Below, piece by piece: positions 792 to 62,960 of a stretch of DNA of 64,000 nucleotides. The notes under the pieces were generated by a model. It searched no databases and was not told the origin of the DNA. It saw nothing but the letters and a program-made list of their open reading frames with translations. The stretch lies in the NCBI GenBank assembly GCA_963922205.1, contig CAWUHX010000012.1:1240001-1304000 (forward strand), read 5' to 3'. The first letter of the stretch is position 1, and every line of letters starts with the position of its first letter. This DNA comes from Romanomermis culicivorax (taxonomy: Eukaryota > Nematoda > Enoplea > Mermithida > Mermithidae). The position numbers and the translations under genes were made by a program.

Positions 792-1808
792 CACCGTTTT
801 TTCCTCAAATAGGGTCTTTTGAGGAAAAAATTTCGAAATGAGGAAAAAAATTTTGGGCATGGTTCTCATTTTGGAAAAAATTTTGGGGAACTCTAAACCG
901 AAGATGCGTTTTGGTGAACTTTAAAAGGTCAAAATCTCAAAATTTTCTGGCGCTTCGCGCCGGTCATGGGTATAATGATAACAATATTCTATCAGGCGCG
1001 GCCGTTAGCATATCTACTTCAACTTACTAATTAATGCTTCACAATTTCTATCAATCAAGTTAGCTCGTTTCACTTTCTAATCGTTTACAGTTAATTATGT
1101 CGCCGAAAACAGAGATTTTTCATCAATTCTCTCAATTGTTTCTCTCGATGATTGGAATTTTTTAGACGTTTGCAATCTGAACTTTTGCGTTTATTGAAGA
1201 TGGAAATAGAAGACATCATCCTAGACTGCGATCTTGAAACTTTTGTTCGCGAATTATCTGTTGGGGAGATTTATTTTTCAACGTTTTAGAATATAAAAAC
1301 CCGAAAAATTTTCCGGCGCTTTGCGCCGGAATGGGTAGCAAATTACACTTCGTCAGCCTGTTCTTAATTCATTTCCCAACGTTACGAAGGTTCATTTTCC
1401 AGCGTTTTAGAAAGTGAAAATCCAAAAATTTTCCGGCGCTCCCAGCCGGACCAAGAACTAAATAAAATTAGATGATTCTAATCGGAACCACAGAAATGTT
1501 GATAGCGGATAAATCCATGAGATCTCTGTCGTTAACTTTCTTTATCCGCTCCTATAGAAAACCAATATATTCTTCATGAGCTCATTTTGACTAACATAAC
1601 CAGAGTTTTCTCAATTTTTTTCCTCATTTTTGCAGGTTTCTGACTACAAATACAACAAAATGCTTGGGTATGCTCCTAAAATGCATAAAAAAGCATCTGT
1701 AGCCACACTAGAAGCGTTTGTAAAAATGTGGAAAATTTTTGGAAAATGAGGAAAAAAATTTTGAGTCCGATTCTCATGTGAAAAAAATCTTCGAGGAAAA
1801 AAGCGGTG
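792..1808. mobile_element. hAT-like non-autonomous element, CCTC family (copy A1)
   Basis: The element begins CACCGTTTTTTCCTC and ends GAGGAAAAAAGCGGTG, an imperfect terminal inverted repeat. The flanks CCGACAAC (784-791) and CTGACAAC (1809-1816) match at 7 of 8 bases, a target duplication of hAT length. It is 1,017 bases long and codes for nothing recognisable. Inside are three GGCGC-loop-GCGCC hairpins or decayed versions, near 955, 1,315 and 1,433. The copy at 4,716-5,732 has the same length in the opposite orientation; a third copy is at 53,041. Assignment to hAT rests on end sequence and duplication length only. Confidence 0.8.
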
Positions 1809-1816
1809 CTGACAAC

Positions 1817-3549
1817 TGGTTAACTGCACAGTTTTTTTCCTCAATTGACCATTTTTGAGGAATCGGAACGAGTATATTTTAGCTGAAGCTCTCAAATTTG
1901 CTCAAATTGGGCTTTTTCAAGTAGTTTGATACTTGAAAAAGCCAACCAGCCTATTTTCAAAGCGCGGAATGGCCCTTCGGGCGCAGCTGCTGTGCCCTAA
2001 GCCTAAGCCTAAGGAAAATTTTAAAGGAAAAATAAATGTCTACTCACTAATCACAGAAATAGATGAAAATCGAAATTATTAAAATACTAAACTCAAATTA
2101 GATTTCCAAATTCGTTGACTTTTGACGAAAATAAGTAAGATTTCCAACATGATCTGAAAATTTGCACAATACATACAAAAGTCTGAAAATAGTTATAATG
2201 TAAATCTTATGGCGAAATACCCTACAGAATTTGAACAGGTCGTTCAAATCTCATCATTTTTTCTTTCCGCGCTTCCATTTTACCCGTCCTAATTAAAAAA
2301 TAACTATTTATGGTATAAACAGTAAGTAAATTTTACCCTAGGAATTTTTTTTAGAATTGAGGAAAATTTTTTTGTACTTAGGCACCAATTTGAGGAAAAA
2401 TTTTTTCATGGTTTCCTGTTCGGAGGTGCATTATAAAATTGAAAATCGTCGGAATTTCACGGCGCTCCGCGCCGGATTTTAATTACTTAATGATTTTTCT
2501 ATATTATTTCAAGGCGCGGTTAGAAAATGTGATTCTAGCTAATCCTTATAGCTTTCAATTATCAAGATATTATGAATAAATGTTTGATCCTGCGTCGTTT
2601 TTTTGAGAATTTAACGAAAAGGAAGATTTTTCTCGGTTAATTTCATAGTCATTTTGCGATCTTGAAAAAGATTTTGACACTGTGTGATTAAAACGTTTTG
2701 AGTTCAAGTGGGAATTCTTGCTGGTTGAAGAATCAAATTTCTTGGTTGCTTTCCTAGTTTGTGAATTGTAGTCTGATCGACTGAAAGTTCATTGAATCAT
2801 AGGTCCCCAAGGTCAGATTTCCTAGGTAGAGATACAGTTGAAAATTTGCGAGGGTAGTGTAGCTAAATGTCCACTAAACACTCCATTTTGTCTCAAAATT
2901 AGGCACCCAGTGATCAATTTTTAGGACCTTAGGTAGGGGTAATACCCACCCCCTCATACCCCTCTCTATGGGGTTGGCTGCATTGAATTCACTAAAAAAT
3001 TAAACCTTCTGTATAGGTAATAAAAGTTGAAAAGGTTTATTTTTCAGCGTTCTATTAAATCAAAATCCAAGAAAAATTCTCGGCGCTAGGCGCCTTTTTT
3101 CATTTTTTTCATTTCAAAAAAAAAAAAAAAAATATTAATGTCTGGAACTCTTTATCTTTTGATATCGTCAATTCTCCCAGTTTGCACAGTTTCAAAGAAA
3201 AAATTAAACTTCTAAACTTCGATAATCGAATTGGGGGGTGCATGCAAGTTGTTACTTTTCAAGTAACCTTTGCACCCTATTGCTGCATGATTTTTCTATT
3301 TCTTAAAATATTTACATTACTTGCGAGTCGATTTACTAATCTTATTCTTTATATGACATTGTATTATGTATTTCACTATGCATTTTTCTTTCGTTTTTGT
3401 TTTGTGTAACAGCAATAAATATTTTTCATTTCATTTCATTTCAACAAGTCATTTATACAAATCTTTTCATTTTCTCTTCAAAATTCAGAAAATTTGGTTT
3501 TAAAAGCCTAAAACCGACACGATTCTAATGAAATGTAGAAGAATTTGGT
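1817..3549. repeat. Decayed repeat mosaic without genes
   Basis: The stretch holds fragments of several families. CCTC-type terminal sequence is seen at 1,830-1,865 and 2,340-2,420. A piece of the CAGAG-type element (CCCCAAGGTCAGATTT near 2,803, TACCCCTCTCTATGGGG near 2,958) follows. GGCGC hairpins lie near 2,460 and 3,083. Three head-to-tail CCTAAG units are at 1,995-2,013, and a short TTTCA run is near 3,428. The sequence from about 3,010 belongs to a TTGCAC-type element that ends near 4,071. No coding sequence is recognised. Confidence 0.5.
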
Positions 3550-3947
3550 CATACCTGTAAGGGGTCCGACCAGTTGGGGAGGGGGGTCGAAAAAAGTCGA
3601 AATTTTTCCCAAAAAAAGGCCAAAAAACATATAAGGTAAAGTGGGATGACTTTAATCAGGCTCGACTTTGATCAGAGTACGGCATTTAATAACTATTTGA
3701 GATCAACAAGTCATTTTTGCTGTGTAGACATCCCCTGCTGTGAGGTTGTCTACACAGCAAAAATGATCTGCTAATCTCGAATAGTTATCAAATGCCATAC
3801 TATGATCAAAGTCGCCCCTGATCAAAGTCACCCCACTTTAATTTACACTTTTTTGCAAATTTCTTTAATTTTTTCCAAACTGGGGGGTTGGGTATATGGT
3901 TGGCCATGGTGGGGGGATCCCCCCCAAGCCCCCCAGGTACAGGTATG
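3550..3947. mobile_element. hAT-like MITE with CATACCTGTA ends (copy 1, with a nested MITE)
   Basis: It starts CATACCTGTA and ends TACAGGTATG. The flanks AATTTGGT (3542-3549) and ATTTTGGT (3948-3955) are an 8-bp target duplication with one mismatch. A related host element near 48,020 reads TTTTGGTG without any insertion at the same place, an empty-site paralogue. The interior carries the family's C- and G-runs and is interrupted by the palindromic element at 3,637-3,840. Confidence 0.85.
3637..3840. mobile_element. Palindromic foldback MITE nested in another MITE
   Basis: The whole 204 bases form a nearly perfect inverted repeat, from TAAAGTGGGATGACTTTAAT to the matching ATCAAAGTCACCCCACTTTA. 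The arms meet around a small loop near 3,735, flanked by TGCTGTGTAGACA and TGTCTACACAGCA. It splits the host MITE between its CATATA and TTTACACTTTTT segments, which are contiguous in the copy at 59,004. No protein is encoded. Confidence 0.8.
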
Positions 3948-3979
3948 ATTTTGGTGGCTTTTCCGATAAAATTAAGCTA

Positions 3980-4071
3980 ATTTAGAATGAACAACCAAAA
4001 GTTTCTTTGAGCAGCCAAAATTGTTCCCCAAGTTGCGCATTGGAACTCGGGCTTTGCAGAAAAAAGGCCCT
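3980..4071. repeat. Right arm of a TTGCAC-type hAT-like element
   Basis: The arm contains the family word in AGTTGCGCATTGGAACTCGG and ends GCAGAAAAAAGGCCCTG. The homologous arm at 48,060-48,138 reads AAGTTGCACATTGCAACCTG and ends TGTGCAGAAAAACCCTG. MITE copy 2 is inserted just behind it. Confidence 0.55.
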
Positions 4072-4082
4072 GTGGTCAAGTT

Positions 4083-4270
4083 CATACCTGTACTTGGGGG
4101 GGTTGGGGGGGACCCCCCAACTTGGCCAACCCAGTACCCAAAATCATTTACCCCCCCAACCCGCCTCAGTTTGGAAAAAATTTGCCAAAAAGTGTATGTT
4201 TTTTGGCCTTTTTTGGGGAAAATTTCGACTTTTTTCTACCCCCCAACAGGTCGGAGGTCTTACAGGTATG
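4083..4270. mobile_element. hAT-like MITE with CATACCTGTA ends (copy 2)
   Basis: It starts CATACCTGTA and ends TACAGGTATG, and is flanked on both sides by the exact 8-bp duplication GTCAAGTT (4075-4082 and 4271-4278). Relative to copies 1, 3 and 4 the interior is inverted. It is non-coding. Confidence 0.9.
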
Positions 4271-4278
4271 GTCAAGTT

Positions 4279-4715
4279 CATACCTTTATGTCAGTCAGCT
4301 GTTCAGAACCAGTTTCAAAATTTTATTCTTCATTGTTATCTTTTAATCAAAGTTTACTGTTCGATTCTTACTTGTCATGTCGAAATTACGTTGTTTTATG
4401 TTGTCTAAGAAATATAAGAAATAAAGATTATGCCGTTGAATTATTCTCTTGTTTGGCTCATGTAAACTCACTTGAATATCTATTTACAAGCAGGTCATAG
4501 CTCGAGACTTTTTTCAAAAAATGTCGGTTTTTCGGCGGAATAAAATGCAAGTTAATGAGAAACGTTCAAAAAACACATCAGAAATGATTTTGAGCGATTT
4601 TTAGGCAAGGAAACTAAAAAAAATGATTTTTCCTCATGAGGAAAAAATTTTTGGGGTTTTTCCTCACATGGGGCAAAAAGCTTCCAGCAAAAAAACACTG
4701 GTTAACTGCGAGATT
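4279..4715. other. AT-rich stretch with CCTC-type repeat fragments
   Basis: No gene is recognised. From about 4,620 the sequence carries CCTC-family words in palindromic form (TTTTTCCTCATGAGGAAAAA), so it is probably the remnant of another element that hosts copy A2. Confidence 0.4.
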
Positions 4716-5732
4716 CACCGTTTTTTTTCCTCGAAGATTTTTTCCACATGAGAACCGGACCCAAAATTTTTTTCCTTATTTTCCAAAAATTTTCCACATT
4801 TTTTAAAATGCTTATAATGTGGCTACGGATGCTTTTTTGTGCATTTTAGGAGCATACCCAAGCATTTTGTTGTATTTGTAGTCAGAAACCTGCAAAAATG
4901 AGGGAAAAAATTGAGGAAATTCTGGTTATGTTAGTCAAAATGAGCTCATCAAGATTATATTGGTGTTCTATAGGAGCGGATAAAGCAAGTAAACGGTAGA
5001 GTTTTCATGAATTTATCCGCTATCAACATTTCTGTGATTCCGATTAGAATCATCTAATTTTATTTAGTTCTTGTTCCGGCGCGGAGCGCCGGAAAAATTT
5101 TTGGATTTTTACTTTCTAAAACGCCGGAAAATGAACCTTAATAACGTTGGGAAGTGAATTAAAATCAGACTGATGAAGTGTAATTTGCTCCCCATTCCGG
5201 CGAGAAGCGCCGGAAAAATTTTCGGGTTTTTGTATTCTAAAACGCTGAAAAATAAATCTCTCCAACAGATAATTCGTGAACAAATGTTTTAAAATCGCGT
5301 TCTAGAGTAATGTCTTCAATTTCCACCATCAATAAACGCAAAAGTTCAGATTGCAAACGTTTAAAAAATTCCAATCATCGAGAGAAAAAATTGAGAGACT
5401 TGATGGAAAATCTCTATTTTCGGCGACATAATTGACTCTAAACGATTAGAAAATGAAACGAGCCAACTTGATTGATAGAAACTGTTGTGCAATAATTAGT
5501 AAGTCGAAGTAGATATACGGCCGCGCCTGATAGAACATAGTTATAATTACCCATGACCGGCGCCAAGCGCCGGAAAATTTTGAGATTTTGACCTTTTAAA
5601 GTCCACCAAAACGCATCTTTTCGGTTTAGAGTTCCCCAAAATTTTTTCCACAATGAGAACCATACCCAAAACTTTTTTCCTCATTTCGAAATTTTTTTCC
5701 TCAAAAGACCCCATTTGAGGAAAAAAACGGTG
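4716..5732. mobile_element. hAT-like non-autonomous element, CCTC family (copy A2)
   Basis: It begins CACCGTTTTTTTTCCTCG and ends GAGGAAAAAAACGGTG. It is 1,017 bases long, collinear with copy A1 in reverse orientation. GCGAGATT stands immediately before the left end (4708-4715). The same eight bases follow the right end only after five extra bases, GCGTG (repeat at 5738-5745). Internal GGCGC-type hairpins lie near 5,075, 5,200 and 5,557. Non-coding. Confidence 0.8.
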
Positions 5733-8279: not shown

Positions 8280-8638
8280 TAAAGGCCTGTCATACTTCAC
8301 CGCACGGCGCCGCGCGGTACCGGCCGGCGCCGCGCGGCGCCGGTTGTCCTATTCATACTAACAGGCGGCGCCGCGCGGTACCGTGCGGTGGCTTGCCATA
8401 CTTCGCCGCGCGGTACCGTGCGGCGCCGCTTTTTTACTTTTGGATTTTGCTCTTCTCAAAAAATGTGTATTGGTTTAGTTGAAACCTGATAGGGCGCCGC
8501 GCGGCGCCGCAAAAATTACAAAAACCTATTTATACTTCAAAGGCGGCGCCGCTTTTAAGTATGAATGGAACAACCGGCGCCGTGCGGCGCCGCGCGGTAC
8601 CGGCCGGCGCCGCACGGTGAAGTATGACAGGGCCTTTA
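8280..8638. mobile_element. GC-rich foldback element with long inverted ends
   Basis: The arms are inverted repeats of about 65 bases. The left begins TAAAGGCCTGTCATACTTCA and the right, read in reverse, begins TAAAGGCCCTGTCATACTTC. Both continue into tracts of GGCGCCGCGCGG and GGTACC units that are themselves palindromic. The centre (8,430-8,560) is AT-rich and holds two more GGCGCC blocks. Such GC content is exceptional in this window. The flanks allow a TA target duplication (TA before AAGGCC and after GGCCTT), which would fit a Tc1/mariner-type MITE, but this is uncertain. No protein is encoded. Confidence 0.75.
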
Positions 8639-47586: not shown

Positions 47587-48138
47587 CCACTCAACCCGAC
47601 AGAATATTGAGATTTTTCATCAATTTTCTCAATTTTTTTGTTCTTTCGCGGTTTGGAACTTTTCGAACGTTTCCAAGGTGAACTTTCCTATGGACGATGT
47701 AGATTGAAAACACCATTTTAGACTGTAAATTTAGAGTCTCTATTCAGGAATGTTTGTTGCATAGATTCATTTTCTAGCTTTTTAGAATAAAAAACTCGAA
47801 AATTTTTCGGCGCTGGGCGCCGAATTGAGAAATAAATTACGTCCTATTAGTTGGATTTTATTTTATTTCTCAACGTTGCAAAGATTGATTTTCCAGCATT
47901 TTAGAAAGTAGAAGTCTGGAAGTTTTTCCAGTACTTTGCGCTAGAATAAAGGCGTAAATTAAATTCGATAACTAAAACCGGCACGATTCGAATGAAATGC
48001 AGGAAAACTAGCTTTTGGTGTTTTTTTCCGATTAAATTAAGCTAATTTATTGATTTTAGAGTGAGCAACCAATCTGTGCAACCAAAATTTTTCTTCAAGT
48101 TGCACATTGCAACCTGGACTGTGCAGAAAAACCCTGGG
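47587..48138. mobile_element. hAT-like element, TTGCAC family, right portion
   Basis: The interior (47,600-47,960) is related to the inner part of CCTC copy A1 and carries the hairpin CGGCGCTGGGCGCCG at 47,810. The right arm holds AACCAAAATTTTTCTTCAAG and TTGCACATTGCAACC and ends TGTGCAGAAAAACCCTG at 48,138. It contains TTTTGGTG, the uninterrupted form of the site occupied by the MITE at 3,550. The left end was not located. Confidence 0.6.
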
Positions 48139-48671
48139 CCCCGTTACATGTATGATTCATATGCAGTCTATGATTACTCTATTTGGCTACGCACAGATGT
48201 TTCAGCTGTCGAACTTGTATGCAATTTAGATTTTCCTCGCTTTGGTTTTTTGTTAACCTTTTCGTTACTGTTATTTTGATAAATTCTTTTTATAATCTGA
48301 CTCAAAAATCAAAATTTTTGGTTTTCCCTCCCTACATTTTTGATAAATTAATCACTGCAGAAGCACGAATATGTTCAGAAAATCTCAAAAATGCATAAAC
48401 AGCATAAGTAGTGGCATTTTTAAGCGAAAAAGAACGATGGCGAAAATTGAAAAAAAAAATTTGGGCCCCTTTTGCCAAATGGCGATATGGTCCCTGCGAA
48501 AAAACAGTGGGCATTCGCGGTCACGTTTCCAACGTTTTTAAAAATGTGGAAAAGTTTTGGAAATGAGAAAAAAATAAAGTTCGGTCCTCATGTGGAAGGA
48601 ATCTTCGAGAAACAAAAACGGTGTCGCCGAATAACTGTTTTTTTCGTCGAGACCCTTTCAACCATGGCTTT
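48139..48671. other. AT-rich stretch with element fragments
   Basis: No gene is recognised. The part from about 48,420 to 48,670 has TTTTTAAGCG, a CAGTGGGC end-like motif and GTTTTTTTCGTCGAG, so it is probably the remains of further hAT-like arms. Confidence 0.4.
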
Positions 48672-48689: not shown

Positions 48690-50955
48690 GTGCAACTTAG
48701 GGAAAAAATTTGGTTGCACAGATAATTTTTGCTTGCTGACTCCAAAATCGATAAATTTGCTTAAATTTATCGGAAAACCATCGCAAACTAGTTTTCTAGT
48801 ATTCCATTCTATCCGCATCGGCTTTAGGTATTTAAAACCCAATTCTCTGAGTTTTGGAGAGAAATTGAAAAGATTAATATGACTAGACTAAAATAGTTTG
48901 TTCGGCGCGCAGCGCCGAATCATTTTTCCTGATTTTAAAGCAAAAATACATAAATTTCACTGTATAACAAATAAAATCATCCACCTCTGCATCGTCGAAA
49001 AAATTGTGTGCATTGAATTTTATGAAGACTAGCTTTTCGACCGAAGCAGATGACAATCGATTAGGCAACTTGGTGTGAACAAAGCCTAACGTTGAAAAAT
49101 TATGCTCCGATGATGCAGTGGACACCACCAAGGAAAATACCCGACTATATAACATGACCAAATAAAGTTCGCCGGCTTGTCATCATTAGTCTTGAAAGCA
49201 ATTTTTTGGAACGAAGGATAAGTTTTTGATTTTTGGCCGATCTCCAGCATTTTTGACCGATCTCCAGCATTTTGTAACGAAATGTGTTTTTTCCTTCATC
49301 TTCAGCTTCACTTGCCCAGATCATATATTCGGTGAGTTACGGTAAATTGCGACTTTTCAGGCTGAAAAAAGTTTGATGTTTCTTCAACATTTGTACTGCT
49401 TACGGCTACTCAACCAGCATATTTGGCGGCCCATTTTTTACCCAAAAAGCTGCCAGCTGCCTCTATCTTCAAGGGGTATGCCGTCTCCCTCGAAATTTTG
49501 AGGCTGCTCAAGTCAGCTCACGAGGTGGTGATGACTGCGAGCAGTAGGTATAACAAAAACCTTAGCAGTGTACAAGTAATGCTGTGCATTGCTCACTAGC
49601 ATTTCTCATGACTCATGAGCAGTAAAATCTGCCTAATATTATTTAGATAAACTAACCAAAGCGAATCAACTTCGGCCAAAAAAGAATTAGCCAAAAAACA
49701 ATTCACACATAACTTAAATTTATTGCATATGAATCTTTAGCTTTGATTAGAATAACTCAACTTGACAGACCGGACCGAATAGGGCTAAAAATTTCCCGAA
49801 TTGAAAATTCACGAAGCATTTGATTTGCTGGTTGTGTTGTGCAGGGTTCATACAAAGTTGGAGAAAAAAAATTCCCTGTGTTTTCCAGGTTGACAAGTGA
49901 AATTTCTCCAGGTTTTATAATGATGAAATGTACTATCCTGAAGAAAAATACTGAATAATAGAAACATGTGTGAGCTAAAGTATCATCAAAAATAGAGTAC
50001 TAAATCAAAAAAATTATTTCAAATTATTGCGCAACCTAGCGCCGAAAAACTTTGATTCCGAGGCCTCTAAAACGTCGGAAAATTAATTTTTCAGCACATT
50101 CTTATGCAGCTACCGATGATCAATCGTGATCTTGTCATCATTTGATTGGTGGAAGTGTTAAAACATTTTTCTAAGGTTTTCGTATATCAAGAGCCAGTAA
50201 TTTACCAATCATAATTATTTATGATATATATAAATCAACGTATAAACCATAAAAAAGTGTGATAAATATTTTACTTCGGACTCGGATATCGGTAATTAAT
50301 GCGGTGCAGAGCATAGGAAAAAATTTGGATTTTGATATTCTATATCGTTGGAAAATGACTATTTTTAATATTTATTTCCTGCCTGAAAAGTCTAATTTTT
50401 CAGTGAATTCAACATGTTTTCAGTCAGGCAAACTAAAATTCAAAAATTAGACAAGCAGCAATGAATTGAATGACTTTTTCAGACAGAAGAACCACTGCTA
50501 TTGCCCCACGCTTAATCATTTTCCAAAGGCAAAAAGTTATGTTCACGAAAGTCGAAAATTCTAAAGAACCACAAAACGATTCTGTAGAAATGATCTAGAA
50601 AAATCTATGTTTTAGTCAAATATGTGGAAAAACAATACAAGGTCAAACATTCATCCATAACATGCTGATGTTTAAAAGCTATAAGCCAGTGTAAGCTAGG
50701 CCGACATTTTTCAACCGCACAACAGAAATGATAACAAGAATCATAAGTGATTTGAAATCCGGCGCGCAGCGCCGGAAAATTTTCGATATGTTTTCTTAAA
50801 AACGCATAAGAATGCATCTCCGGGCAGGAAACTCACCCAATCAAAAGGGTCGTTAGGCTATAATTTTTATAAGCCATGTTGGCTTGTGCCCCTAAATCTT
50901 TAGGAGTCAATCAGAATTTTTAGAAGCCATGGCTCCTAATTGACCTAAAAAAACC
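48690..50955. mobile_element. hAT-like element region, relative of the one in ZPR1 intron 2
   Basis: The left arm near 48,690-48,740 carries ATGTGCAACTTAGGGAAAAA and TTGGTTGCACAGA. From 50,035 to 50,945 the sequence is collinear with 21,085-21,990. It ends near 50,955 with ATTGACCTAAAAAAACCCTG. Hairpins of the GGCGC type lie at 48,903 and 50,760. The hAT transposase fragment at 48,883-49,161 sits about 200 bases inside the left arm. Whether this is one element or two joined pieces is not settled. Confidence 0.5.
48883..49161 (-). pseudogene. hAT transposase C-terminal dimerisation domain fragment
   Basis: The minus-strand frame contains SLVVSTASSEHNFSTLGF followed by VHTKLPNRLSSASVEKLVFI. 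This is the conserved hATC dimerisation region (typical: ...SxxSERxFSxxGxixxxxRxxLxxxxxxxLxxi). No BED zinc finger or DDE catalytic part was found nearby, and the fragment starts without an ATG in context, so it is a remnant. It is the only hAT protein piece seen among the window's many hAT-like non-coding elements. Confidence 0.75.
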
Positions 50956-53040: not shown

Positions 53041-55154
53041 CACCGTTTTTTCCCTCGAAGATTTTTTCCACGTGAGAACCGGACCCTAAATTTTTTTCTT
53101 CATTTTCCAAAAATTTTCCACATTTTTAAAAACGTTTATAATGTGGCTGCGGATGCTTTTTTATGCATTTTAGGAGCATATCCAAGCATTTTAATGTTTT
53201 TGGAGTCAAAAACCTGCAAAAATGAGGAACAAATTGAGAAAATTCTTGATAGGTTAGTCAAAATGATGAAGAATATATTGGTGTTCTACAAGAGTAGAGA
53301 GAGCATTCCAACGACAGAGTTGTCGTGAATTTATCCGCTATTTTTATATTTCTATGCTTCTGATTAGGATTATCCAATTTTATTTATGATGCCTACTCCG
53401 GCGCGGAGCGCCGGCAAAATTTTTGGACTTTCACTTTCTAAAATGCTGGAAAATGGACATTCACAATGTTGAGAAATAAATTAAAATCAGGCTGATTAAG
53501 TGTAATTTGTTCCCCATTCACCCGGAAAAATTTTTGAGTTTTTACATTCTAAAATGCTGAAAATAAATCTCTCCAATGGATATTCGTGAACAGAAGTTCT
53601 AAAATCACAGTCTAGAAAGACGTTTCAATTTCCATATTCAATCAACCCAGAAGTTCATGTTGAAAATGTTTGAAAAAATCCAAGCACGAGAAAAAAATTG
53701 AGAATTAATGAAAAATTGTTTTTTTCGGCGAAATGCTGACTGTTAATGATTAGAAAATGAGACGAGCTAACTTGTTTTTGATAGCATCTGTTGAGAATTG
53801 ATTAGTAAGTGGAAGTAGATATGCTAACGGTTGCGCATGATAGAGAATAATGATTATTATACCCCTGACCGGCGCGAAGCGCCGAAAATTATGGGATTCT
53901 GACCTTTTGAAGTCAACCAAAACGCATCTCTTCAGTTTTGAATTCTCCAAACTTTTTTCGACAATGAGAACCATGCCCAAAATTTTTTTCCTCACTTCTA
54001 AATTTTTTTCCTCAAAAGACCCCATTAAAGCGAAAAAACGCAGTGTTTTTTTTGTGCCAAAACATGGTTTTAGGCACAAAAACATTTGGAATGGCACAAA
54101 AAATGTTGAGCGTTTGAATTTGGAATGATTTGGAATGGTACAAAATTTTTGGCTGTTCAAACGTCAAATTTTCTTGATTTTTAGACGATTTAGAGGCCGA
54201 AAATGCAAAAAATGTTCGGCGCTTCGCGCCGAGTCAATGGATATATAATATATCATCTACTCGTATTGGACCGGGACGTGAACAAGTTCTCTTCAAACAG
54301 TGTATCACCATCGTTGCAGCAAAGTTTATAGGCTGTCAATGAATGATGAATCGAAATAAATTCTGAATACTCTGTTTATTCAGTCACATTCGGATTTAAA
54401 ACTGAAATTCTGGAATCTTTTTACAAGTCGGTTCCTTTCCAAATTACGGTCTAAACTGGCATTTTTGGACTCCTGAAGATGCCAGCTATCCAGATCAGTT
54501 CGAAAATCCAAGGGCTCGCGGCATTCAGGAACTCATTTGAATAAAATCTGCACACATCTCACATAGTGCTTGTCACTACAGATAAATCCTACGTACTTCA
54601 AGAATAGAACCTGGTCCACCAGCCTATGGACTTAATGCGTTTACCACTATACAATTTCACCAGAAAGTATAAACACTATATTCGTTCAAGAAATTTGATA
54701 CTATTTCAACTAACAACTTCATTTGGAAGAGCCTCAACAGCGCTGCGCCCTTCGGGAGTATGCACATTTTTCGACTTCATTTTTACTACTCTTCACACTA
54801 CCCAATATATAAATTAGATTCGTAAGCGTAGTCGAAAATTTAATCAATTTGAACTTCTTGAACAATTCTAGAGTCATTTCAATTTCCTCAGCATTCCATT
54901 TTTTCGTCGTGAAGTACTTGCCCAGTTTTTTCTTTTCTCACTGACATGGTTAGCTGAAAAAAAGGTTGGGCATGATTTTTACAAAAAATTATAATGCCTT
55001 AGACGATAACTTTTTATCAAAATTTTGGCCTAAATCCTTTCCGCAGTTTTCAGTAATGTTTCTAGCAGAAAAAACTTTTTGTGCCACTGGCACAAATTTT
55101 TTTGTCCTCTTGTGTCAATTGGCACAAATGTCCGTGCGCAAAAAAACGCTGGTG
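53041..55154. mobile_element. hAT-like element, CCTC family (copy A3), interrupted by a GGCAC element
   Basis: The left end is CACCGTTTTTTCCCTCG. The body to 54,040 is collinear with A2, including hairpins near 53,400 and 53,868. The last three bases (GTG) lie at 55,152-55,154 behind the inserted GGCAC element. CCGCGGTC occurs exactly on both sides of the whole (53033-53040 and 55155-55162), so the target duplication survives. Confidence 0.85.
54041..55151. mobile_element. hAT-like element, GGCAC family, nested in copy A3
   Basis: It starts CAGTGTTTTTTTTGTGCC and ends GTGCGCAAAAAAACGCTG, with GGCACAAAAA and TTTTTGTGCCACTGGCACAA near the ends and a CGGCGCTTCGCGCCG hairpin at 54,221. It sits between ACG and GTG of the A3 terminus. 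No 8-bp duplication is visible at this junction. Non-coding. Confidence 0.75.
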
Positions 55155-55757: not shown

Positions 55758-56742
55758 CACTGTTTTTTTCGACGAACTTCTTTCCACAAATGTGGAAAGG
55801 GGTCAAATTTTTTTTCCACATGTGTGAAAAAATTTTTTTTTCGTCTTAAAATCCGCGTTTTTCCGCTTAAAAATGCTCACAGACGCTTTATCGCACTGCT
55901 TTTGACCTAAAAATTGAAATGTTCGACTTTAAAGCCTAATCTACAAGCATTGTTAAACAAATTCTCAAGAAAACTATCCAAGAGCATAATTGATTTGAAT
56001 TACACGAGAAATCGGTGGTCAAGTCCTCTACGATGACAAGCGAAAGCCCCAAAAAGATGGTAATCTTTCCGGCGAGCGCCGGAAATTTTTTTGGGTATAT
56101 TGACATTATGGGATGGTGGAAAATCAATTTTCCGAACATTTACTCCTAGAATTAGATTCCAATTTTAAGTTCAAAAGTCGTAATTTCTAGAATTTTACTT
56201 GAAAAATTTTTGAATTTGTAATTTATTTGTAAACTACCATGAACTTGGTCGAAAATATATGAGTTGTAAGAAGAGTATAAATTTCCGAAAGATATTTCCA
56301 TGAAGCTTTTGAATTGATTCTAAGTTAGCAAAGAAAAAATCGCACCAAAAAGCATAGAGACTTGACGTATTGATCTTTCTCAAAAGAAAAAAATGCGAAT
56401 CTTCATTAAATATTATGATAAAATATTGAAGATTACCAATTAAAACATGAAATGATACGTTTAAGATGATGAAAACTTTTATAGATTAAGTGATAAATGA
56501 AGGTAGACATGATAAAAGCCGCGCCTGAGCTACCTAATGAATAATGACGATTATTAGAGTTATAACCGGCGCGAAGCGCCGGAAAATTGAGATTTGGACC
56601 TCCTAAAATGCACCAAAACGCATCTTTTTAATATGAAAACCCCAAATTTTTCTTCCACATTTGTAGAAAGACCTCAAAAATTTTTTCCATATTCCAAATT
56701 TTTTTCCACATTAAAGTGCAAATGTGGAGAAAAAAAACAGTG
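55758..56742. mobile_element. hAT-like element, CCAC family, complete copy
   Basis: It starts CACTGTTTTTTTCGACG and ends GTGGAGAAAAAAAACAGTG, 985 bases. The arms carry CCACAAATGTGG, CCACATGTGTG and CCACATTTGTAG words. Hairpins CCGGCGAGCGCCGG (56,072) and CCGGCGCGAAGCGCCGG (56,565) flank the centre. The flanks ATGACCCAG and ATGATCAG look like an eroded target duplication. It is the reverse complement, piece by piece, of the CCAC element at 57,830-61,113. Confidence 0.8.
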
Positions 56743-56890: not shown

Positions 56891-57122
56891 CATACCTGTA
56901 AGACCTCCGACCAGTTGGGGGGGGGGGTAAATCCGAAATTTTGGGGTGGGGGGTAGAAAAAAGTCGAAATTTTTCCCAAAAAAGGCCAAAAAACATACTT
57001 TTTTGAAAATTTTTTAATTTTTTCCAAACTGGGGGGGGGGGGGGTTGGATGATTTTGGGTACAGGGTTGGCCAAGTTGGGGGGGTCCCCCCAACCCCCCC
57101 CCCCCCCCCAAGTACAGGTATG
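56891..57122. mobile_element. hAT-like MITE with CATACCTGTA ends (copy 3)
   Basis: It starts CATACCTGTAAGACCTCC and ends CAAGTACAGGTATG. The flanks TTTCATAT (56883-56890) and TTCCATAT (57123-57130) match at 7 of 8 bases. Long G and C runs inside can pair. It is inserted in a CCAC-family right arm. Confidence 0.85.
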
Positions 57123-58495
57123 TTCCATATTTGTGGAAAAAAGTTCGTGGAAAAAAACAGTGCCCGGAACAGTGTTTTTTTTGTGCCAAAACATGGTTTT
57201 TGGCACAAAAAATTTTGGGCGTTTGTGACAATTGGCACAAATTTTTTGACTAGTCGAATGCCGAATTTCTTCGATTTTTAGTCATTTTAGGGGCTGAGAA
57301 AACGCAAAATTTCCTCGGCGCTTTGCGCCGACTCAAGTGTAATATTAGTCAAGTGTCAGGAAGCTGAAAGAATTGTATTCGAATAGTAGATTTGTATGAT
57401 CGCAACCAACTTTGAGATTGTCAATGATTGAAAAATGAATTAGTTAACTTCCACTGTTCATTCAGTATGATTGGAAACCGAAATTTTTATTTTTGGTGTT
57501 TGATTCGAACGGAAAAATTTACCTTGTTGGCACAATTTTGCAACCAAAAATTTACGCGACGTGACTTCCGTTCTAGTTTTTTTCAGGAAAAATCATTTTG
57601 GACATCCTTCATTTATTTACATCGGTGTTAAGAAGAAATCCGTAGCCGAAAATTAAAGAAAAATATAAAATAGCTAAAAAATTGTATAAAAATATCTGAA
57701 TTCTCACAGCATATGATTTCTTTCCGAATCGTATAAACTGCTTTCTTCATCAGTTTTTCTTATCGCACCGATGTGCTTAAGATAAAATAGAGTTGGCACG
57801 ATTTTTTTTTGCAAATTACTGCGGCAAAACACTGTTTTTTTTCCACATTTGCACTATAATGTGGAAAAAAAATCTGGAATGTGGAAAAAATTTTTGAGGT
57901 CTTTCCACAAATGTGGAAGAAAAATTTGGGGTTTTCATATTGGAAAGATGCATTTTGGTGCATTTTAGGAGGTCCAAATCTCAAAATTTTCCGGCGCTTC
58001 GCGCCGGTTATAACTTTAATAATCATCATTATTCATTAAGTAGCTCAGGCGTGGCTTTTATCATGTCTACTTTCATTTATCACTTAATCTATAATAGTTT
58101 TCATCATCTTAAACGTAGCATCTCATGTTTTAATTGATAATCTTCAACATTTTATCATAATATTCAATGAAGATTCGCAATTTTTCCTTTTGAAAAAAAT
58201 CAATACGTCAGGTCTCTATGCTTTATGATGCGATTATTTCTTTGCTAACAAAAAATCAATTCAAAAGCTTCATGGAAATATCTTTCGGAAATTTATACTC
58301 TTCTTACTCATATATTTTCGACCAAGTTCATGAGAGTTTACAAATAAATTACAGATTTTAAAATTTTTCTAGTAAAATTCTAGAAATTACGACTCTAACA
58401 CAAAATTGGAATCTAATTCTTGAAATAAATGTTCGAAAAATTGATTTTCCAGCATCTCAGAATGTCAATATACCCATCTTTTTTGGGCTTTCGCT

Positions 58496-59748
58496 CAGTG
58501 TTTTTTTTTGTGCCAAAACATGGTTTTTGGCACAAAAAAATTTGGAATGGCACAAAAAATTTTGAGCGTTTGTGCCAATTGGCACAAATTTTTTGACTGG
58601 TCCAAGGCTAAATTTCCTTGATTTTTAGTCATTTTAAGGGCTGAAAACGCAAAATTTTCTCGGCGCTTCGCGCCGATTCAATGGGTTTAATATTGACAAC
58701 TTTCCTTTGTCTCGAACGCGAGCGGATTCAATTCGAATAATTTATTTGTATTATCGCAACAGACTTTGAGATTGTCAATGACCGGCTAGAGAATAGAAAT
58801 TGTTAACTTTACGTCCTCTGTTAATTCAGTTGGATTGAGAACCGAAACTTATATTTTTGGTGATTGATTCAAACAAAAAAATTGAAATTTTTGGCACAAT
58901 TATTCAACCAAAAATCTACGCGAAGCGACTTTCGACTTTTTTCAGGAGAAAACAATTATAGACATACAAGAAATCCTAATTTAATCTTTAATATAGTTGT
59001 TTGCATACCTGTAAGACCTCCGACCAGTTGGGGGAGGGGGGTAAATCCGAAATTTTGGGAGGGGGTAGGAAAAAGTCGAAATTTTTCCCAAAAAAGGCCA
59101 AAAAACATACACTTTTTGGCAAATTTTTTCAATTTTTTCCCAACTGGGGGGGGAAATGATTTTGGGTACTGGGTTGGCCAAGTTGGGGGGGGGGTCCCCC
59201 CCCAGGTACAGGTATGGTTGTTTGTTAGGAAGGAGGCCGAAAAGTAAAGGAAAACTTCATAACAAAAAGTCTATAAAAATATCTGAATTATCGCAGCATT
59301 GAATTTCTTTTCGGATCGTAGAAACCGTTTTTTAGATCAGTTTTTGTTATCTCGCTGACGTGGTTGGAGAAAATAGAGCAGGCACGATTTTTATACAAAT
59401 GAATGCGGTGAAAGTATCTGCAGTTAGTTTTTATCAAACTTGAAAGAAAGTAAGAAAATAAATTTATTAAATGCAAAGAAATACAAGAGTAAATATGAAT
59501 AATACAGAAAAGCTCATGGACATGACAGAAGCACGTGCGAACTGCGAATTGAGCTTTAAAAAATGACTCAATTTAGATCGAAAACAGGGCATACTGTTAT
59601 AACTTTTATCACAAAACAGTTTTATTGTTTTCAGTACGTTTTTAGAGCAAAAAATTTTTTGTGCCAATTGGCACAAAGGGCCAAAAAAAAACACAAAGGG
59701 CCAAAACAAAAAAAACAAAAAAAAGTCCGTGCACAAAAAAAAACGCTG
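58496..59748. mobile_element. hAT-like element, GGCAC family, nested level 3
   Basis: The left end is CAGTGTTTTTTTTTGTGCC and the right end CACAAAAAAAAACGCTG. The exact 8-bp duplication CTTTCGCT stands on both sides (58488-58495 and 59749-59756). A CGGCGCTTCGCGCCG hairpin lies at 58,661. The element is interrupted by MITE copy 4. Non-coding. Confidence 0.92.
59004..59216. mobile_element. hAT-like MITE with CATACCTGTA ends (copy 4), nested level 4
   Basis: It starts CATACCTGTAAGACCTCC and ends CCAGGTACAGGTATG, and is flanked by the exact 8-bp duplication GTTGTTTG (58996-59003 and 59217-59224). It is 213 bases long and is the uninterrupted reference for copy 1. Confidence 0.93.
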
Positions 59749-60050
59749 CTTTCGCTTGTCATCATAGAGAACTTGACCATTGATTTCTTGTGTAATTCAA
59801 GTCAATTATGCTCCTGGCTAGTTTGCTAGAAAATTTGTTCAACAATGCTTGTAGATTAGGCTTTTAAGTCGAACATTTTAATTTTTTCTTCAATTTTAAT
59901 GAATTAACTTCTCTAAAAACACCGGAAGACTTGAAAAAGCTCAAAAACAGTGCGATAAAGCGTCTGTGAGCATTTTTAAGCCAAAAAACGAGAATTTTAA
60001 GACAAAAAATTTTTTTCCATATGTGGAAAAAAAATTTGACCCCTTTCCAC

Positions 60051-61068
60051 CACTGTTTTTTTTTCCCCCCGGGCCTTTTCCCCAAATGGGGAAAGGGATC
60101 AAAATTTTTTTCCCCATTTTCCCGAAGTCGTTTTTTTCGCTTAAAAATGCTCACAGACGCTTTATTTAGGTGTTTTTGAGCCTTTTCAAGCCTGCTGGTG
60201 TTTTTAGACCCGTTAATTCATTAAAATTGAGGAAAAAATTGAAATTTTCGAGTTCAAAGTTTAATCTACAAGCATTGGAACAAATTTTCAAGCAAACTAT
60301 CCAAAAGCATAATGACTTTGAGAATTACATGAGAAATCGATGGTCAGGTTCTCTATGATGACAAGTGAGAACCCAAAATAGATGTTAATGTTTCCGGCGC
60401 GAAGCGCCGGAAAAATTTTTTGGGGTATTTATATTCTGCGACGCTGGAAAATCAATTTTCCGAACATTTATCCCAAGAATTAGATATGAATCTTATGTTC
60501 AAAAGTCGTAATTTCTAGAATTTTACTTGAAAAATTTTAAAACCAGTATAATTTATTTGTAAACTCTCATACTTGGTCGAAAATATATGAGTATGCAGGG
60601 TATAAATTTCCGAAAGATATTTCCATGGAGCGTTTGAATTGATTTTTGTTAGAAAACAAAATAATCGCATCAAAAAGCTTAGAGACTTGACGTACTGATC
60701 TTTCTCAAAAGGAAAAAATGCGAATCTTCATTAAATATCATGATAAAATATTGAAGATTACCAATGAAAACATGAGATAATACGTTCAAGATGATGAAAA
60801 CTATTATAGATTATATGACAAATGAAGGTAGACGTGCTAAAAGCCGCGCCTGAGCTAAGTAATGCATAATAATGATTATTAAAGTTATAAACGGCGCGAA
60901 GCGCCGGAAAATTTTGAGATTATGACATTCTAAAATGCACCAAAATGCATCTTTTCTGTATCCGATCCCCAAAATTTTCTTCCCCAAATGGGGAAAGAGC
61001 CCAAAATTTTTTTCCCCTTTCCGAATTTTTTTTCCCGAAAAAGCACGATTTGGGGAAAAAAAACAGTG
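60051..61068. mobile_element. hAT-like element, CCCC family, nested level 3
   Basis: The left end is CACTGTTTTTTTTTCCCC and the right end TTTGGGGAAAAAAAACAGTG. The exact 8-bp duplication CTTTCCAC flanks it (60043-60050 and 61069-61076). The arms carry CCCCAAATGGGG where the CCAC family has CCACAAATGTGG. The interior is close to that of the CCAC family, with hairpins at 60,393 and 60,892. Non-coding. Confidence 0.92.
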
Positions 61069-61282
61069 CTTTCCACATTTGTGGAAAAAAGTTCGTGGAA
61101 AAAAAAAACAGTGAGGTAACCTTTAGTTATGTTTTTATCAAACTTTTGGCATAAAACTTTTTAAAAGTTTTCAGTATGTTTTTAGGCTAAAAATAATTTT
61201 TGTGCCATTGGCACAAATTTTTTTGGCTCTTTCTGCCAATTGGCACAAATGTCCGTGCACAAAAAAAAACGCTGGCCCGAAA

Positions 61283-62334
61283 TAGATTTTCAGAAACACA
61301 TACAGTATTCCATAGCATAGATAATAAAATTAATGTAGATTTTCTAACTTGTCGCATGCTACAATGAAAATTCACTCGTTCTGTTGCTGTATATCATCCA
61401 TGATTCATTTCGGAATCACATACGAACCGAGCGTAAATTTTGCAATCGTACTCACTTACTGGCCGAAAATTCATCATCGATAATTACCAGCCTCAGAGAA
61501 AAAAATATTGGCAACGAACGACTACTTTTTCCGGCGGAACGGATCGTCAACAGGTTGAAACGTTCTGTCTGAAAATGCTCTTCCGGTCGCTATGTAGCAT
61601 GCAATTTTGGGAAAAACGATCAAGGATAACCTGACCTCCAACCGAACGGTGTGTCTCCAATACAGCGAAACACAACAGCAAAACTCAAAATAACGTGACT
61701 CAAAACAGCGATTTTCATTGCGGCGAAGTTTCAATATAGCGATTCTCAAAACAGAGAGGTCTCAAAGCGACGATTGTAAATACAGCTAAATCTCAATGCT
61801 GTGATTCTCAAACAGGGTGGTCTTGAAACAGCGATTTTCAAAACAGGGAGTCTCAAAACAGTGATTCTCGAAAGAGCAAATCTCAATACAGCGATTAGTA
61901 AAAAGTTCTATGCGTTCGAATAAACGCATACATCATTTTTATAATAAATATGCAAATTAGGTTTATTAAAGCTGTTTTCGCTAGTTGAGAGTCTATTTTT
62001 AGTTGCGTTCGGTGATCTAAGTTTCACATCCTTTTGAGCTGCAGTTGCGGTAGGTGTTGGGCACCCTATTGCTGGCGAATTGCGATGGGAAATCGACATG
62101 CAAATCGAGGAATCGGACGACCAGAGGCGCAAACATTTGCATAGAAGTGGAGCGCCAAGAAAGACGGAGATGATAATGATTTTTGATTGTCAATTCTCAT
62201 TATATTTTCATTAACATATAGTCTGTTTTTTACAAAATGCTTCCAAATAAAAAGTGACACAGATCAGTACTGTCGTCAAAATCGTTTACATAGAGCTCTC
62301 ATCGTAAAATTTTTCACTCGAAAAATTATTCAAG
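61283..62334. repeat. Gene-free stretch with degenerate CAGCGATT tandem repeats
   Basis: From 61,650 to 61,900 loose repeats of the type CTCAAAACAGCGATT recur every 14 to 30 bases. At 62,212-62,335 lies an inverted copy of the sequence at 16,020-16,145 in CNDP intron 2; both contain AGTACTG and ACGATTTTGAC or their complements. No gene is recognised. Confidence 0.45.
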
Positions 62335-62399: not shown

Positions 62400-62960
62400 G
62401 CGTTTTGGGCGTTTTAGGCGTTTTAGAGGTTCATCATGTATGAAAGGGCGTTTTGGGCATTTTAAGGCGTTTTGGCATTTTAAAGCGTTTTGGGCATTTT
62501 GGCATTTTGAGGCGTTTTGGCATTTTAAGGCGTTTTGGGCATTTTGGGCATTTTGAGGCGTTTTGGCATTTTAAGGCGTTTTGGGCATTTTGGCATTTTA
62601 AGGCGTTTTGGCATTTTAAGGCGTTTTGACATTTTGAGGCGTTTTGGCATTTTAAGGCGTTTTGGCATTTTAAAGCGTTTTGGGCATTTTGGCATTTTGA
62701 GGCGTTTTGGCATTTTAAGGCGTTTTGGGCATTTTGGGCATTTTGAGGCGTTTTGGCATTTTAAGGCGTTTTGGGCATTTTGGCATTTTAAGGCGTTTTG
62801 GCATTTTAAGGCGTTTTGACATTTTGAGGTGTTTTGGCATTTAAGGCGTTTTGGCATTTTAAGGCGTTTTGGGCATTTTAAGGCTTTTTGGGCGTTTTAG
62901 GGCGTTATGTTGGCATTTTAAGGCATTTTTGCGTTTTAAGTCATTTTGAGCTTTTTAAGT
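62400..62960. repeat. Minisatellite of GGCGTTTTGGCATTTTAA units with a 190-bp higher order
   Basis: Units of 18 bases (GGCGTTTTGGCATTTTAA) are interspersed with 9-base GGGCATTTT steps. The marked unit with AAAGCG recurs at 62,482 and 62,672 in the same context, so blocks of 190 bases have been duplicated. Because the units are multiples of nine, open frames exist on both strands; they are not genes. Confidence 0.9.

Follow-up and report, generated by a model that had tools for sequence, protein, structure and literature searches.

Positions 57170-61274 of a 64,000-nucleotide window from the nematode Romanomermis culicivorax (G000 C12:1240001-1304000) hold a nest of nonautonomous, hAT-like elements, which we read from the letters and from paired tips (Table 1). 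At each end of these elements, a 5-bp CAnnG tip is followed by a T-run and then by a short word that recurs several times in both orientations, some copies being paired as palindromes. Because the nest runs from GGCACA through CCACA to GGCACA again, GGCACA elements were mobile before the CCACA element inserted and again afterwards; the CCCCA element landed in a CCACA word palindrome and broke it. The genome that we searched is a 359-Mb assembly in 595 contigs, and L- and G-numbers label the loci of copies elsewhere in it. The original prediction had described hAT-like families that share one arm scaffold, differ in the word and diverged in recognition specificity. As a whole, that observation was partly confirmed and its interpretation partly supported.

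The CCACA, CCCCA, CCTCA and GGCACA elements are nonautonomous hAT-type elements resembling miniature inverted-repeat transposable elements. CAnnG tips stand at both ends of the elements, and the weight of this assignment rests on target duplication because the tips were themselves a search criterion. Five of the 170 tip pairs in the window had 8-bp flanks with at most one mismatch, against a mean of 0.16 and a maximum of 2 in shifted controls; four further elements showed no clean duplication (Table 1). Exact 8-bp repeats also flank copies L018 and L019 as well as the CCTCA copies L001 (GTGCACAC) and L005 (CCTGTAAT). A stricter scan, which also required similar terminal repeats, covered the window and 200 kb of contig 1 (264 kb in all) and returned eight elements, some of them from other families. 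The P-element superfamily also makes 8-bp duplications, together with a THAP-domain transposase and P-type tips. Genome-wide, GGAAAAAAATTTTGGG with at most one mismatch occurred at 8602 places versus 48 for the reversed pattern, and a census of tips followed by a T-run gave 8031 places versus 2735 for its reverse (65 rows inspected by eye). Subterminal repeats stood in both orientations, with five word copies in each of two CCACA arms and a similar layout in the other scaffold families. Uninterrupted elements of these families in the window measure 985-1253 bp, and copy number is high. Within the window, tblastn matches to 15 hAT peptides (E 1e-4) were confined to 49.0-49.2 kb.

Tips and words lay where they had been predicted, except that the end near 4071 was recovered only as a 75% match to the end at 48136. 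The CCTCA assignment at 792 held; the ends at 4716 and 53041, also assigned to CCTCA, belong to the other arm of that family, which mixes CCTCG/CCTCA with CCACA. All five predicted words are present, and the list was incomplete: additional words are CCGCACA (L012), TTGCAC (L030), GCCA (window 48509), GTAC (L010 and L012), GGATCC and AACCC.

We aligned hand-picked representative arms. The A arm runs from the tip and T-run through a word, a spacer, a reversed word, an A-run and T-run with GGAA, and a second reversed word to an A-run and T-run with GAG or GGG, followed by a word/reversed-word palindrome. Farther in, the stretch AAAAGATGC(A/G)TTTTGGTG... continues with small differences up to a GGCGC-NNN-GCGCC palindrome in CCACA, CCCCA, CCTCA, CCGCACA (L012) and TTGCAC (L030) arms. 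This palindrome (often CGGCGCTTCGCGCCG) lies about 170-350 bp inside the ends whatever the word; it was present in the CCACA, CCCCA, CCTCA, GGCACA, CCGCACA and TTGCACA elements that we read, and occurs also at window positions 48901-48919.

With words masked, tips and T-runs dropped, and one arm per family compared against 300 dinucleotide shuffles per pair, the CCACA, CCCCA, CCTCA and GGCACA arms aligned mutually (z 7.1, 4.8, 3.1, 7.4, 6.9 and 5.4 for the six pairs, the score being reached by 0, 0, 4, 0, 0 and 0 of 300 shuffles in the same order). Six other arms (CCGCACA, TTGCAC of L030, two GTAC arms of L010, TTGCACA and AACCC) gave z -1.5 to 2.5 against these four families. The highest of these values, uncorrected for the number of pairs, were 2.5 for GTAC L010b versus CCCCA (8/300), 2.0 for TTGCAC L030 versus CCACA (10/300) and 1.9 for AACCC versus CCACA (13/300). 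The TTGCACA arm, which had been placed on the same scaffold, ranged from -1.5 to 1.1, and the scaffold claim therefore holds for four words and not for TTGCACA. The alignments support descent of CCACA, CCCCA, CCTCA and, more distantly, GGCACA from one ancestral arm. A rigid 35-letter scaffold pattern was discarded as badly phased (4 matches, chance level).

CCACA, CCCCA and CCTCA differ at the middle base of the word. The two CCACA arms hold 10 word sites (five per arm), two of which lay in or were cut by a gap; at all eight sites aligned without gaps, two CCCCA copies had C in the middle. The other word positions of these sites differed at 4 of 32 in L018, near the scaffold rate of 26/163, and the chance that eight middle bases would share one new base at scaffold divergence is about 2e-10. 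Likewise, the CCTCA A arm of L019 had middle T at five of five sites relative to CCACA, one of them beside a gap (chance about 2e-5). The signal is the sameness of the new base, not the substitution rate. The change extends over both arms in CCCCA; in CCTCA it covers the A arm and, partly, the B arm.

Across the genome, 2134 places matched the B-arm pattern TTTCCNCAAATGNGGAAAGGGNTCAAA when one mismatch was allowed, and none matched its reverse. The first 100 of these, a non-random set in contig order without mismatch, had all but three letters fixed by the pattern. The two middle bases of the palindrome were A/T at 60 of them, C/G at 36, C/C at 2, C/A at 1 and T/G at 1, so that half-words agreed in 96 of 100 and no A..G or C..T hybrid was among them. 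A background position near the word varied within the 36 C/G rows (A 20, G 16). Of the four odd copies, the three that were fetched (L077, L078 and L079) had a module that otherwise aligned with CCCCA copies and one deviating half-word each, and we read them as decay for that reason. The prediction that words are monomorphic within families and discrete between them thus stood for CCACA and CCCCA at this one palindrome, the other word letters being fixed by the pattern.

Within the GGCACA family, words showed half the variation of the remaining arm sequence, both in the A arm (0.044 versus 0.082, p 0.009, 14 copies) and in the B arm (0.042 versus 0.097, p 0.002, 10 copies). The CCACA A-arm set was mixed with CCTCA copies and was left out of this test.

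Consistent with the prediction of shared interior sequence, CCACA and CCCCA elements have a common interior of 543 nt at 84%. We built a tree of 14 copies from non-word B-module sequence, midpoint-rooted for drawing only and mostly unresolved inside. Four CCACA copies split from the rest with support 100/98; the remainder comprised seven unambiguous CCCCA copies together with L074, which has a partial arm with one CCCCA match, L056, whose word is ambiguous, and L012:8518, which lies behind a GTAC-type end. CCACA and CCCCA are one change apart in this tree. Copies L077-L082 were chosen by their printed words, not their interiors; two of them, L077 and L081, carry CCCCA words on an interior that by eye is nearer to CCACA than to the young CCCCA group, with their placement inside the CCCCA side left open by the tree. 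Masked alignment, palindrome states and tree all agree with the predicted single backbone bearing discrete words, for CCACA, CCCCA, CCTCA and GGCACA. A GTAC-type end (L012:8336) appears to run into the B-module interior (79% over 183 nt), and a search with 260 nt of a CCCCA arm at E 1e-8 recovered no GGCACA arm. A second mode, in which arms are replaced while the interior is kept, may be needed for TTGCAC (L030), CCGCACA and GTAC.

hAT dimerisation domains (PF05699) are abundant in the genome (150 scored of 1837 candidates). We read 40 flanks: the 3' flanks of 20 of these 150 places, and 20 of 150 from one transposase-fragment query (1029 candidates). Several apparent links between a transposase and an arm did not hold up. 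Next to C104, the CCTCA arm is itself a nested element, flanked by a duplication of its own (TGTGTGCA); the C160 transposase likewise belongs to a BED-hAT with a separate duplication, nested between the GGCACA arms that surround it. By eye, C259 and C95 seem to be AACCTA-word elements in or beside GGCACA and CCACA elements; the CCGCGC arm next to C1 looks like an independent short element, and C121 like an AACCC element within a GGCACA element. The TTGCACA-transposase junction at window position 48920, first taken as an autonomous relic, is best read as a one-off fusion. Another 39 scored places (of 1803 candidates) match up to near this junction, and L076, the one of them that was fetched, diverges right after the GGCGC palindrome.

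Other hAT classes in this genome do carry transposase sequence. One has YAGGGATGGGC tips and arms crowded with palindromic GGATCC, and three copies (Table 1) are flanked by perfect 8-bp duplications (CTAAATAC, CCTAATCA and ATAATTGG). In the one copy tested, Pfam recognised both a BED domain (PF02892, E 2e-13) and a dimerisation domain (PF05699, E 6e-23), and the other two have similar peptides by eye. A second, high-copy class with CAGGGTTGG tips and AACCC words was found at most of L054-L073, at L011:7320-8582 and at L004:1919-2963; where the upstream part was seen (L004, L011 and L075), the C-terminal part of the transposase gene alone was kept. These two classes therefore show that other hAT families here join a transposase with a family-specific word.

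Table 1. Elements, element ends and word palindromes; positions are those of the window unless a locus is named.
Feature	Position	Strand	Remarks
GGCACA-word element, outermost of nest	57170-61274	+	tips CAGTG...CGCTG; flanks GCCCGGAA / GCCCGAAA, 1 mismatch
CCACA-word element inside outermost GGCACA element	57830-61113	+	tips CACTG...CAGTG; interrupted by two later insertions; no clean target duplication
GGCACA-word element inside CCACA element	58496-59748	+	perfect 8-bp duplication CTTTCGCT
CCCCA-word element inside CCACA element	60051-61068	+	perfect 8-bp duplication CTTTCCAC
Palindromic word pair TTTCCACAAATGTGGAA, CCACA A arm	57902-57918	.	
Palindromic word pair CCCCAAATGGGG, CCCCA B arm	60080-60091	.	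basis of genome-wide pattern
Palindromic word pair GTGCCAATTGGCAC, GGCACA A arm	58572-58585	.	
CCACA-word element, B arm left, A arm right, 985 bp	55758-56742	+	arms by pattern and alignment; no clean target duplication
GGCACA-word element	54041-55151	+	tips and words; no clean target duplication
CCTCA-family element, left = B arm with mixed CCTC/CCAC words	53041-54040	+	right boundary approximate
CCTCA-word element	792-1808	+	tips CACCG...CGGTG; flanks CCGACAAC / CTGACAAC, 1 mismatch
CCTCA-word element of a second kind	1827-4700	+	tips CACAG...CACTG; perfect 8-bp duplication GTTAACTG
CCTCA-family element, B arm left, A arm right	4716-5732	+	no clean target duplication
GCCA-word family end, resembles CCCCA B arm	48408-48509	-	73.5% over 102 nt, E 7e-9
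TTGCACA-word end, scaffold unlike CC-N-CA / GGCACA families	48041-48136	-	masked alignment
hAT C-terminal dimerisation fragment (PF05699) of AACCC-type element fused to TTGCACA arm	48998-49161	-	judged a one-off chimaera
GGATCC-word hAT copy	L050+L032, 2240-4340 of joined piece		
GGATCC-word hAT copy	L052+L030, 1245-4301		
GGATCC-word hAT copy	L053+L031, 421-4279		

CCTCA words on elements tipped CACAG/CACTG occur at window 1827-4700 and at G000 C1:1734262, and the former looks like a separate family carrying the CCTCA word. A repeat of about 220 bp, with ends CATACCTGTA...TACAGGTATG or close variants and rich in G-runs and C-runs, is inserted in several elements; we saw it at window positions 56894-57124 and 59006-59222, at L011:7546-7783 and at L044, L055, L059, L064 and L071. 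Elsewhere in the window, a minus-strand frame at 14558-15196 matches peptidase family M20 (PF01546, E 2e-11), an ordinary gene seemingly being present too; degenerate short repeats of the type CAAAACAGCGATTCTC lie at 61640-61890, and a tandem array of a short unit like GGCGTTTTGGCATTTTAA lies at 62410-62960. An Rfam search of the window gave no match.

We favour, with moderate confidence, a stepwise and concerted change of putative transposase-binding sites on one backbone. The BED zinc finger of each family's transposase most likely binds the DNA at these subterminal words, as analogy with other hAT elements suggests. Nearly all comparable words in the CC-N-CA lineages took the same new middle base, and the change probably went site by site, with copies that carried more new words being better moved by a transposase of shifted specificity. 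Each word set would afterwards have been amplified from one or a few masters; a loss of cross-mobilisation between the families would be no more than a guess. We infer BED binding, a matching change of the transposase, the direction of change and selection.

Several results weigh against stepwise, concerted change. Substitutions had been expected to concentrate in the word, and the word substitution rate was not significantly above that of the scaffold in any of six family pairs: word columns were denser in five (p 0.07, 0.08, 0.22, 0.29 and 0.49) and sparser in the sixth (p 0.87). In the 40 flanks read, none of the CCACA, CCCCA, CCTCA or GGCACA ends could be linked to a transposase. Discrete words would also be expected from amplification of one master without selection, and the word conservation seen within GGCACA was absent from CCTCA (A arm p 0.15; B arm 0.029 versus 0.029; 16 copies each). 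Related interiors sometimes bear dissimilar arms, so that the predicted pattern in which the word changes while the rest stays is one of two modes; the inner arms of TTGCAC (L030) and CCGCACA (L012) match CCACA, and their word regions do so at most weakly (z 2.0 and 1.7). The CCTCA family is itself uneven. The copy at window position 5732 has T in register at only three of five A-arm sites, its fourth word being a TCTCA one base out of register and its fifth still CCACA. Among the first 100 listed of the 1002 places with the CCTCA B-arm pattern TTCCNCATTTTCCAAAAATTTTCCNCATTTTTA (reversed, 0), read by eye, the first site was T in 100 of 100 and the second was polymorphic (A 72, T 25, C 3), contrary to the expected monomorphism. 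This second site was also the most polymorphic column among 15 local copies (A 8, T 5), 12 of which have half of each word in the adjoining palindrome, CCACA..TGAG, with single-base variants in the other three. The CCTCA family looks like a change not yet complete, in a direction that we infer.

Some of these results would follow if one transposase moved all the families and the word differed only through different master copies, with no role in specificity. Single-master bursts would give the discrete CCACA and CCCCA words seen at the palindrome sampled, word columns need not evolve significantly faster than the scaffold, and no pairing with a transposase would have to be found. Independent mutation, however, would not give the same base at eight of eight sites over two arms (about 2e-10), and words within GGCACA are more conserved than the rest of the arm, which makes such a neutral founder effect unlikely. 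Matching half-words might also have a purely mutational cause, if hairpin or template-switch repair homogenised the palindromes without any reading by protein. The word pairs are indeed palindromes able to form hairpins, and half-words agreed in 96 of the 100 listed places; but words without a palindromic partner, and those on the other arm, underwent the same change, and the mismatched CCACA..TGAG kept in 12 of 15 local CCTCA copies indicates that any correction is inefficient. We regard repair as a very improbable source of the pattern.

We likewise give little credence to recombination as the general explanation, in which whole end modules are exchanged and different words on the same interior are grafts. 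It would account for TTGCAC (L030) and CCGCACA (L012:9169), whose inner arms match CCACA as far as the GGCGC palindrome and whose word regions reach z 0.2 to 2.0 against the four families, and for the GTAC-type end L012:8336, which seems to lead into a B-module interior (the shuffle test covered the L010 GTAC arms instead). GGCACA might be added, as it has the word-region scaffold yet escaped the 260-nt CCCCA arm query. By contrast, the spacers between words are themselves similar among CCACA, CCCCA and CCTCA (z 4.8-7.4), and the CCCCA copies L077 and L081 appear by eye to grade in their interiors toward CCACA. Stepwise, concerted change on one backbone thus remains our preferred reading. In a bolder form of it, concerted single-base edits of the word would have redirected one hAT backbone several times, giving all four middle bases (the fourth as CCGCA within CCGCACA, whose word region aligns only weakly), with each family having its own transposase and CCTCA being part-way; this is possible but rather doubtful.

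That hAT elements differ in subterminal motif, giving specificity, is already in print (PMC3143072, PMC8097297). In Ac, AAACGG hexamers in the subterminal regions bind the transposase, and three of them are said to suffice for transposition (PMC3260210). Maize Ac/Ds resembles the present elements in having many short hexamer copies at both subterminal regions and nonautonomous derivatives with filler interiors (PMC3260210); it has one word and one autonomous element, whereas here several words stand on similar arms and we found no autonomous partner. At the left end of Hermes, two subterminal repeats form a quasi-palindrome to which BED fingers bind, and a single BED can read two related but unlike half-sites, much as the mixed CCACA..TGAG palindrome might be read; Hermes differs as a single element with asymmetric binding at one end (PMC10368747). 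Given the tolerance of the Hermes BED for half-sites that differ, and the stated sufficiency of three Ac hexamers, stepwise change through mixed arms would be feasible. In Herves, C(G/A)ATTCAT is repeated near both ends and is sufficient for binding, single-base variants were tested, and the authors state that differing motifs ensure specificity; their comparison is between different hAT elements, not sister families on one backbone (PMC3143072). BED proteins of the CGGBP and hAT-19 type illustrate how varied the specificities of related hAT DNA-binding domains are, their motifs lying in subterminal regions; that diversity is on the protein side and across species, and the accessible portion of the paper does not describe the ends as edits of one arm (PMC8097297). 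For mariner, lost transposase-DNA recognition was proposed to let families diverge and coexist (Lampe et al. 2001, cited in PMC3695323). Mariner belongs to another superfamily. We know of no concerted change of many internal sites in it. Among the titles and abstracts found in open-licence PubMed Central, none reports sister families on one hAT backbone in which almost all word copies changed in concert.

It has long been asked how a transposase can evolve in step with its numerous binding sites, since a protein of altered specificity acts well only once the majority of those sites have altered too. Sister families that stand one word base apart at nearly every comparable site, together with a family in a mixed state, are natural material for testing stepwise change. 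Should every word prove to have a BED finger of its own, a base-recognition code for that type of zinc finger could be read from the series; and if each family has its own transposase, these elements would form a set of naturally evolved transposition systems, each independent of the others, and the reading code of the BED finger could be derived from them.

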